The position numbers and the translations under genes were made by a program. The notes beneath the pieces are model-generated. The model was given only the letters and a program-made list of their open reading frames with translations. It was not told the origin of the DNA and did not search any database. Positions 3,165-32,073 of a stretch of 32,073 bases of DNA are shown here, one piece after another. Position 1 is the stretch's first letter. Every line of letters begins with the position of its first letter. The stretch is from Gemmatimonas sp. (GTDB lineage Bacteria; Krumholzibacteriota; Krumholzibacteriia; LZORAL124-64-63): NCBI GenBank assembly GCA_013824755.1, contig PNOJ01000018.1, positions 1-32,073 of the forward strand. Reading direction: 5' to 3'.

Positions 3165-4526
3165 TCAGGCCTTGGCCGCCGCGCTCTGGCGCTCGGCCTC
3201 GCGCTCGGCCTTGGCCCGGCGCCCATCCAGAATCTCGCGCCACTCCGCCTTGCCCCGCTTGAAGTGCTGGACCAGCGGTCGGCGCGACGGGCAGACGTAG
3301 GCGCAGCTGCCGCACTCGATGCAGTCCAGGACGTGCCAGTCGCCCAGTTCCTCGAAGCGGAACCGCTCGGCGATCAGGCCCATGGCGCTGGGCACCAGGC
3401 CCATCGGGCAGGCGTCGACGCAGGCGCCGCAGCGGATGCAGGGGCCGCCCTCGAAGCGGGCCGCCTCGTCATCGCGCAGGCAGAGCACGCCGCTGGTGCC
3501 CTTGATCAGGGGCACGTCCATGTCGAACTGGCCGATGCCCATCATGGGCCCGCCGAAGATGACCTTGCCCACGTCCGGGGTGACGCCCCCGCAGTGGGCC
3601 AGCACGTCCAGCAGCGGGGCGCCGACGCGCACGCGCAGGTTGTGCGGCACGTTGATCGCGGCGCCGGTGACCGTCGCCACGCGCTCGGTCATCGGCAACC
3701 CGTCGCGAACCGCCTCGAGGCAGGCCACGGCCGTGCCCACGTTCTGCACCACGCAGCCGACGTCCATGGGCAGGCCGCCGGGCGGCACGCGCCGGCCGCA
3801 GAGGGCGTAGATCAGGTGCTTCTCGGAGCCCTGCGGGTACTTCGTCTCCAGCAGCGTGAACTCCGCCGCGACGTCCGGCGGGCAGGCCCGGCGCAGCGCC
3901 TCGAGCGCGTCGGGCTTGTTGGACTCGATGCCGACGCAGGCGCGCGTGACGCCCAGGACGCGCATCATCAGGCCCAGGCCCTCCATGACCTCGGCCGCCT
4001 GCTCGAGCATCACGCGGTGGTCGGCGGTCAGGTACGGCTCGCACTCGGCGCCGTTGAGGATGAGCAGGTCGACCTTCTTCTCGGCCGGCGGGCTCAGCTT
4101 GACGTGCGTCGGGAACGTCGCGCCGCCCATGCCGACCACGCCGGCGGCCTGGATGGCGCGGCGCAGCTCGGCGGACTCGAGCCGGCGCCAGTCCGCCGGC
4201 GGCGCCAGGCCCTCCCAGGGCCGGTCCTCGCCGTCGGATTCGATCTCCACCGCCAGCATGGGGCGGCCCAGCGGGTGCGGCAGGGCCGCCACCTGCTTGA
4301 CCGTGCCGCTGGTCGGCGCGTGCACCGGCACCGAGACGAAGCCCACCGGCTCGCTCAGGGGCTGCCAGCGGGCCACGCGGTCGCCCTTGGCGACCAGCAC
4401 CTTGCCCGGGGCGCCGAGGTGCTGGGCGATCGGCACCACGTAGCGGTGCAGCAGCGGCATGGCCTCGATCTGCAGGCCGGCCGTGTCCTTGTGGTAGGCT
4501 GGGTGGACGCCGCCGCTGAATTTCAT
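3165..4526 (-). CDS. rnfC: Ion-translocating oxidoreductase complex subunit C (NADH/Fe-S/flavin subunit)
   Basis: RnfC is the cytoplasmic NAD(H)-reactive subunit of Rnf, holding FMN and two [4Fe-4S] clusters. The 453-residue product begins MKFSGGVHPAYHKD. It has the N-terminal barrel-sandwich region (about 30-100), GMGGATFPTHVK and NGAECEPYLTADH of the nucleotide/flavin domain, the SLBB region (about 260-350), and two ferredoxin motifs, CIRCGACVDACP and CIECGSCAYVCP. A short charged Ala/Glu/Lys tail follows. Residues upstream of the chosen Met are open in frame but belong to rnfB on another frame. ATG at 4526 overlaps the rnfB stop as ATGA and has GAAAGGA upstream. The length is typical of the shorter RnfC forms without the long C-terminal repeats seen in enterobacteria. 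Confidence 0.95.
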   Translation of the reverse strand: MKFSGGVHPAYHKDTAGLQIEAMPLLHRYVVPIAQHLGAPGKVLVAKGDRVARWQPLSEPVGFVSVPVHAPTSGTVKQVAALPHPLGRPMLAVEIESDGEDRPWEGLAPPADWRRLESAELRRAIQAAGVVGMGGATFPTHVKLSPPAEKKVDLLILNGAECEPYLTADHRVMLEQAAEVMEGLGLMMRVLGVTRACVGIESNKPDALEALRRACPPDVAAEFTLLETKYPQGSEKHLIYALCGRRVPPGGLPMDVGCVVQNVGTAVACLEAVRDGLPMTERVATVTGAAINVPHNLRVRVGAPLLDVLAHCGGVTPDVGKVIFGGPMMGIGQFDMDVPLIKGTSGVLCLRDDEAARFEGGPCIRCGACVDACPMGLVPSAMGLIAERFRFEELGDWHVLDCIECGSCAYVCPSRRPLVQHFKRGKAEWREILDGRRAKAEREAERQSAAAKA

Positions 4527-5344
4527 GACGACGTCCTTTCGGCGGCCGGGGCCGCGGCGCCGCGGTAGACCAGGGAGCCCGTCGGGCAGAGCGCGGCCAG
4601 CGCCGGGTCGTCGGGCACGTGCTCGTAGTCGATGTAGGCCAGGAAGTCGGCCACTTTGATGCGCGGGTCCTCGGCGAAGGACTTCTCGCACTTCTTGCAG
4701 CCCAGACAGGCGACGGCGCAGGCCTTCTTGGCCGCCGGGCCGCGGTCGTGGTTGCTGCACAGCACGTGGATGGTCGCCTCGGCGGGCACCAGCTTGATCA
4801 GGTCCTTGGGGCAGGCGGCCACGCACTGCCCGCAGGCGGTGCAGCGGGCGGGGATGATCCGCGCCACGCCGCTGGGCATCATCTCGACCGCGCCGAAGGC
4901 GCAGGCGCGCTGGCAGTCGCCCAGGCCGAGGCAGCCGGCGCCGCAGGCCTTGTCGCCGCCGCCGAGCAGGGCCGCGCTGGCGCAGCTGGCGAGCCCGTTG
5001 TAGCGGTACTTCTTGGCGGCGACGTCGTCGCCGCCCTGGCAGAGGATCAGGGCGACCTGGGGCGCGCGGTCCTGCACCGTCAGGCCGACGATGGAGGCCA
5101 CGAGACGGCGCGTTTCCTGATCGCAGACGGGGCAGCCGTCGGGCGTGGCGTCGCCGCGCACGACCGCGCCCGCGAAGTCGCCGCAGCCGGCGAAACCGCA
5201 GCCGCCGCAGTTGGCGCCCGGCAGGGCCTCGGTGATGCGGTCCTGGCGCGGGTCGGTCTCCACGGCGAAGGCGCGCGCCGCCAGGGCGAGTCCCAGGCCG
5301 GATAGCAGGCCGATCCCGGACAGCACGACGGTCGGAACGAGCAT
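4523..5344 (-). CDS. rnfB: Ion-translocating oxidoreductase complex subunit B (ferredoxin-like)
   Basis: RnfB receives electrons from ferredoxin and passes them into the Rnf complex. The 273-residue product has one N-terminal membrane helix (LSGIGLLSGLGLALAARAF), then the Fe-S domain ANCGGCGFAGC with a later Cys (GCPVC). A ferredoxin-like region follows with CGAGCLGLGDCQRAC and CTACGQCVAACP. A further Cys-rich stretch, ACAVACLGCKKCEKSF, and a final LCPTGSLV complete it. This matches the longer multi-cluster RnfB type of anaerobes rather than the shorter enterobacterial protein. The stop overlaps the rnfC start as ATGA. The gap to the upstream rnfA is 30 bases, so it is part of the same transcript. 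Confidence 0.95.
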   Translation of the reverse strand: MLVPTVVLSGIGLLSGLGLALAARAFAVETDPRQDRITEALPGANCGGCGFAGCGDFAGAVVRGDATPDGCPVCDQETRRLVASIVGLTVQDRAPQVALILCQGGDDVAAKKYRYNGLASCASAALLGGGDKACGAGCLGLGDCQRACAFGAVEMMPSGVARIIPARCTACGQCVAACPKDLIKLVPAEATIHVLCSNHDRGPAAKKACAVACLGCKKCEKSFAEDPRIKVADFLAYIDYEHVPDDPALAALCPTGSLVYRGAAAPAAERTSS

Positions 5345-31608: not shown

Positions 31609-31768
31609 GGACACACTCCAGCGCTGGCGCCCTGGTTGCAAGGCCGATCGCGGTAACTAGTAGCACCCGTGCGGTCGCAATTCAACATTCAATGATCCGG
31701 GGTATGGTCGTGATCCGCCGGCAGGTCATCCTGCGGCCGGGACACATCCAACCCGAGCGACGGGGGGC

Positions 31769-31799
31769 GCGCTCCAGGCGCCTCCTGCGCCTGGAGCGC
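31769..31799. repeat. Inner hairpin 1 of the nested dyad, loop CTCCT
   Basis: GCGCTCCAGGCGC (31769-31781) and GCGCCTGGAGCGC (31787-31799) form a perfect 13-bp stem closing a five-base loop CTCCT, or AGGAG on the minus strand. Confidence 0.9.
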
Positions 31800-31808
31800 T
31801 CGACTTGC

Positions 31809-31839
31809 GGGTTCCGGCGCCCTCCTGGCGCCGGAACCC
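31809..31839. repeat. Inner hairpin 2 of the nested dyad, loop CTCCT
   Basis: GGGTTCCGGCGCC (31809-31821) and GGCGCCGGAACCC (31827-31839) form a perfect 13-bp stem with the same CTCCT loop as the first hairpin, nine bases away (linker TCGACTTGC). The stem sequence differs from hairpin 1 at several positions while pairing is kept. Confidence 0.9.
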
Positions 31840-31935
31840 TCCAGACGCCCCCGTCGCCCGGGTTGGATGTGTCCCGGCCGAGATGCACCTGCCGGCGGGT
31901 CAGCGACCATTCCCCCGGATCGATCGAAGTTGAAT

Positions 31936-32073
31936 CACAAGTTCACAGCGATGGGTTCGCATACATGAGCGCAAATATCCTGTTGCGAGTCGAATTGTGA
32001 GGCTGTCAGGGAAGGGATGAGATCCCCCACAACCGGTGCTTCGGCACAGAGACTCGAGAGAGACCCGTACGGC
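31936..32073. other. Non-coding right edge, no gene recognised
   Basis: This stretch is less GC-rich than the rest and has no convincing gene. It holds two small hairpins: GGGAT-GAG-ATCCC (32014-32026) and GTGC-TTCG-GCAC (32036-32047), the latter with a UUCG-type tetraloop. It may be the leader of a gene or RNA beyond the window. Confidence 0.4.

Follow-up and report, generated by a model that had tools for sequence, protein, structure and literature searches.

A palindromic element upstream of sdhC as a probable copy of a dispersed, MITE/REP-like repeat family

The large inverted repeat located upstream of sdhC in the window (the entire analyzed stretch of 32,073 nt, contig C18 of the 2.46-Mb, 84% complete MAG G000) is most probably one copy of a lineage-specific, dispersed and mobile palindromic repeat of the MITE/REP type. 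A first-pass annotation made from the sequence had listed a palindromic MITE- or REP-like repeat, a structured RNA and an sdhC leader as candidates. DNA searches and a covariance model applied to the source genome and its relatives returned many dispersed copies instead of a single copy syntenic with sdhC, and the dispersed copies, their empty sites and the ends in common with an insertion sequence favor the first of these options.

Fold, architecture and distribution of the Y element

The region 31680-31935 exhibits a minimum free energy of -223.9 kcal/mol, compared to -128.4 +/- 5.5 kcal/mol for 200 dinucleotide shuffles (z = -17.3; 0/200 shuffles equal), which confirms the initially reported inverted repeat at its position. 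Its further details were recovered as well: two perfect hairpins are located at the tip, followed outward by a 33-bp inner stem and by imperfect pairing that extends to about 31680 and 31935. The fold-back had been described as devoid of a credible gene, and the 102-aa ORF that crosses it (31692-32000) was dismissed as a mechanical frame. The individual features, with the repeat unit termed Y, are the following:

31680..31733, plus strand: left outer arm, imperfect pairing, kept in place in the congeners G001 and G002
31734..31880, minus strand: Y unit proper, ~147 bp, perfect pairing ending 33-35 nt out in most copies
31734..31766, plus strand: left inner arm, 33 nt
31769..31799, no strand assigned: tip hairpin 2, a stem of 13 bp closed by a CTCCT loop that reads AGGAG on the minus strand
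31809..31839, no strand assigned: tip hairpin 1, a stem of 13 bp closed by a CTCCT loop that reads AGGAG on the minus strand
31848..31880, plus strand: right inner arm, an inverted copy of the left arm with one G-T pair
31881..31935, plus strand: right outer arm, imperfect pairing, kept in place in G001 and G002
32042..32073, plus strand: single arm of another Y copy, located at the end of the contig and recognized by sequence identity with L137/L019; this second copy is visible in G001

Both tip hairpins carry 5-nt loops and are seated on the nearly perfect 33-bp stem. The canonical strand of the unit, recognized by its YGTC tag and AGGA loops, is the minus strand; GACG, located 3' of tip hairpin 1 on the plus strand, represents the CGTC tag on the opposite one. 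A covariance model of the 113-nt tip, built from an alignment of 28 copies (A2), matches the window copy at G000:C18:31751-31863 on the minus strand with 106.8 bits.

Across the copies, the ~147-bp unit combines a pair of 13-bp hairpins, each with a 5-nt loop, with a conserved junction and an arm of ~33 bp on either side, and the same layout was found in many other genera. The inner GGGG/CCCC, the TGTC/CGTC tag, the AGGA at the tip of hairpin 1 and the junction AAGYCRAGC are kept, the loop of hairpin 2 is either AGGAK or ACGAG, and the arms consist of copy-specific sequence whose perfect pairing in most cases ends 33-35 nt from the tip. The tag reads TGTC or CGTC in 28/28 copies of the genus and TGTC, CGTC or CCTC in 18/25 copies from other genera. 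A full-length subtype of ~243 bp has outer arms in common, and about 14 copies of G000 are complete or nearly complete representatives of it. Pairs of Y copies in opposite orientation are frequent, with a spacing of about 220-300 bp (G000:C66; G003:C55, C125 and C66; G002:C172; G001:C341; G017:C66 and C122).

A DNA search of G000 with the window element identified 17 further places, and a query consisting of one full-length copy yielded more. The covariance model gave 36 matches in G000, 34, 35 and 55 matches in three congeners (G001-G003), and 1-18 matches in 11 out of 19 further genomes of the family in the first set. Among 80 scanned genomes of the phylum, 21 were positive at E <= 1e-6, all of them from the family of the window, and no Y tip was detected at this threshold in 42 genomes of other families within the phylum; a single weak match was obtained in G023. 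The exact core pattern had 0 matches in genome and viral contig collections, from which near relatives were possibly left out, and the element matched neither phage records nor, for six loci scanned, any Rfam family above its gathering score. Within the genomes searched, the Y element is a lineage-specific repeat confined to one family. This family probably belongs to Candidatus Krumholzibacteriota, as judged from the SdhA neighbours of the window, which carry the labels Krumholzibacteriota/Krumholzibacteriia; two near-identical ones are named Fibrobacter sp. and Latescibacterota, probably through submitter labels. An assembly artefact, which the first-pass annotation had named as a possible refutation, is excluded in practice by the 113-nt tip at 36 places of G000 and in independent assemblies of relatives, and by the presence of the sdhC copy in G001. 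The repeat in turn accounts for the frequent short-read contig breaks at Y sites in these genomes.

The sdh locus, mobility and a candidate insertion sequence

At the sdhC site of G001, the element occupies the orthologous place with the same arms, and two Y copies in opposite orientation lie in the intergenic region that separates a PntB-like gene from sdhC. In G000, one arm of the second copy forms the end of the window contig and the other is found on contig C60 after the PntB-like gene, so that C18 and C60 are probably adjacent in the genome with the assembly split at the repeat. The second copy on C60 (G000:C60:13200-18224, locus 3215-4980) is interrupted just after a tip hairpin by a group II intron, which was identified by Rfam models RF02001 and RF01998, a sub-threshold match to RF00029 and a 451-aa reverse-transcriptase-like ORF. 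Class C introns favor insertion just after a hairpin.

The position upstream of sdhC and the occupied orthologous place in G001 would be expected of a cis-regulatory RNA or riboswitch for sdhCAB. However, dozens of copies adjoin unrelated genes, the PntB-like/sdhC region of G001 holds a second copy too, and none of the six loci reached the gathering level of an Rfam family. In addition, at the sdhC site of G002, whose flank is 97% identical, a single arm is present with the outer flanks, neither the tip nor the right arm is found, and the sequence is joined at CGA. The proposed sdhC leader is consequently abandoned as extremely unlikely; nothing links the element to sdhC, and the window copy is without an sdhC-specific role.

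The flanks of 31 G000 copies were traced in G001-G003 and the orthologous stretches were read. Copy C91 is present in G000 alone, and the corresponding sites in G001-G003 are cleanly empty and lack both arms; other empty sites were found for C7b in G003, for C3b in G002 and G003, and for C34 in G001. On the level of sequence comparison, these empty sites in close relatives show that the Y copies are mobile. A candidate target duplication at C91 (AAAATCGTC/ATAATCATC) is imperfect, with 7/9 bp matching. At the place corresponding to C47/C89 in G003 (G003:C117:40718-41738), two oppositely oriented Y copies are located side by side, an arrangement that suggests insertion of Y next to Y.

A different origin of the arms, in which they represent target DNA and insertion of the tip is accompanied by an inverted duplication of about 30 bp of the flank, could account for arms of constant length (33-35 nt from the tip) and copy-specific sequence, as well as for the single arm between intact outer flanks at the sdhC site of G002. 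This scenario is nevertheless very improbable. Conserved arms are common to full-length copies at about 14 sites and therefore move as part of the element, neither arm is found at clean empty sites (for example, that of C91), and the state of G002 is equally explained by deletion at the CGA microhomology.

The outer 26 bp of the full-length subtype (GGTTCTGGCC...GAAATTGTCCCTG) also terminate an insertion sequence in G003:

L242:191-1398 (G003:C105) and L243 (G003:C27): insertion sequence, 1.21 kb, with a 365-aa transposase

Because of these common ends, the full-length subtype can be regarded as MITE-like. The 365-aa transposase could move the full-length copies in trans; the window copy belongs to a subtype without the 26-bp ends. 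The transposase had no Pfam match, weak NCBIfam matches to IS1 (6e-5) and ISL3 (0.003), and, as the only query used there, no tblastn match among plasmid records. Its relatives occur throughout the family and beyond, including genomes without Y. No clear target duplication was identified at the two insertion sequence copies (G003:C105 and C27). The idea that the Y tip is a remnant of this insertion sequence was ruled out, since the insertion sequence contains no Y tip. As far as seen, the phylum is known from MAGs only, and a mobile repeat family and a candidate mobilizing insertion sequence are hereby added to it.

Genomic context and possible functions

According to a home-made gene caller, none of 33 G000 copies lies inside a called gene; 10 are found between convergent, 17 between unidirectional and 3 between divergent genes, the remaining 3 being undetermined. 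Between unidirectional genes, most copies are closer to the upstream stop codon than to the downstream start. This clustering close to stop codons and in convergent intergenic regions could indicate that selection has fixed the copies at 3' ends for a function as ordinary terminators or insulators, an explanation that appears rather unlikely, as REPs generally show the same 3'-end and intergenic bias (PMC3733652), which fits purging from genes and promoters. Moreover, copies are gained and lost between species that are 94-97% alike, and no T run was noted beside the Y unit. For a mobile repeat, it can be proposed that copies are retained mainly directly downstream of stop codons, a location in which they would be least harmful and may function in the manner of 3'-end structures or terminators.

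Across genera, conservation of the tip exceeds the requirements of a purely selfish spacer, an observation that counts against the mobile-repeat explanation. The alternative is a dispersed structured RNA under selection, spread by transposition, whose tip would bind a protein, for example as two CsrA-type GGA hairpins, and which would act as a sponge or 3'-UTR element. Indeed, AGGA/GGA is present at the tip of hairpin 1 in 53/53 copies, and the loop of hairpin 2 contains GGA in 33/53, covering many genera. The repeats of CsrB display CAGGA(U/A/C)G in hairpin loops, and high-affinity loops follow ANGGAN (PMC7652899). csrA was found in G001, G002, G003, G006 and G017, but not in the 84% complete G000. 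Further observations argue against such an RNA: the GGA strand shows no preference relative to the genes (6 co-directional versus 11 opposed among the 17 unidirectional copies), the tip flips between close relatives, hairpin 2 carries ACGAG without GGA in about half of the genus copies, and long stable stems are reported to be unfavorable for CsrA (PMC7652899). Selection for an RNA of this kind is therefore considered unlikely. The structured RNA of the first-pass annotation is likewise an unlikely reading of the conserved tip, in view of the missing strand preference, the tip inversions and the absence of an Rfam match at gathering score in the six loci scanned. It is a decidedly improbable variant that mobile pairs of CsrA-type GGA hairpins are seeded at gene 3' ends at dozens of sites per genome, with template switching maintaining the stem without sequence selection.

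Paired arm changes, tip inversion and comparison with known repeat systems

In alignment A2, 443 arm cells are Watson-Crick paired, 1 is G-U and 4 are mismatched; 13/16 arm pairs are altered on both sides and none on one side alone. Orthologs were compared over 30 positions at 18 loci, using the closest pair of orthologous copies per locus. Here, both partners of the pair had changed at 37 arm positions and one partner alone at 17; wobbles accounted for only 4 of the singles. Flank divergence amounts to a few percent (the sdhC region is 94-97% identical), and independent mutation at this divergence would be expected to yield far more singles than doubles. At six loci (C65, C34, C22, C47, C57a and C7a), the orientation of the tip is reversed relative to the flanks, and the tip of C22 is 100% identical yet reversed. 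At C65 of G000, the right arm, its outer part included, now matches the left arm exactly in inverted form, and G002 retains the older right arm.

Published work describes the combination of arm homogenization and spacer inversion as a signature of template switching at inverted repeats (PMC8604942), and template switching has also been proposed to maintain hairpins via compensatory changes (PMC8794818). After insertion of a Y copy, the replicating polymerase would switch templates from one arm to the other and recopy one arm from its partner, which could explain the near-perfect pairing despite sequence drift, and would occasionally invert the tip. Part of the paired differences may instead reflect replacement of whole copies, not conversion in place, as for C1 and C3a in G003. 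The Y copies represent a natural series, with dozens of examples of paired changes lacking G-U intermediates and of tip inversions that are readable between close relatives. Since template switching alone can produce covariation, a bacterial inverted repeat that covaries strongly is not necessarily a selected RNA.

In a brief literature search, near-perfect arms of constant length and free sequence around a conserved double hairpin were not found described. The Y element resembles bacterial MITEs such as RUP, NEMIS/Correia, ERIC, QMITE2 and Chunjie (PMC10969869, PMC2229807) in that these are non-coding, 70-300 bp long, strongly folding, intergenic and dispersed, with empty sites in relatives and terminal inverted repeats common to a resident insertion sequence, the latter applying to the full-length subtype only and not to the window copy. 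It differs from them in its GC-rich sequence, its conserved double-hairpin tip and the constant length of its near-perfect inner arms of free sequence. Moreover, many copies, including that of the window, lack insertion sequence ends, and target duplications are not clear.

With CGTC-tagged REPs and BIMEs (PMC3733652), the element has in common the CGTC/TGTC/CCTC tag at the hairpin foot, the 5-nt loop, pairs in opposite orientation and the 3'-end bias, and some REP dimers in A. variabilis and H. neapolitanus lie within long palindromes (PMC3733652). These REPs, however, are units of 20-40 bp with 8-9 bp stems that begin with A-T pairs, whereas Y measures ~147 bp, has 13-bp G+C-rich stems without such pairs, and its second hairpin is untagged. 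RAYT-mobilized GTAG REPs and REPINs would be accompanied by a RAYT gene in the genome, and the Y genomes depart from this, the RAYT/Y1 transposase (PF01797) being absent in 7 genomes searched, with the control matching in 5 genomes. Finally, quasipalindrome correction by template switching (PMC8604942, PMC8794818) exhibits the same arm homogenization, paired multi-base changes and spacer inversion. In the case of the Y element, such correction would differ in having acted repeatedly on a repeat dispersed in bacterial genomes, across a spacer of 81 nt, to give a whole family of copies with copy-specific perfect arms.
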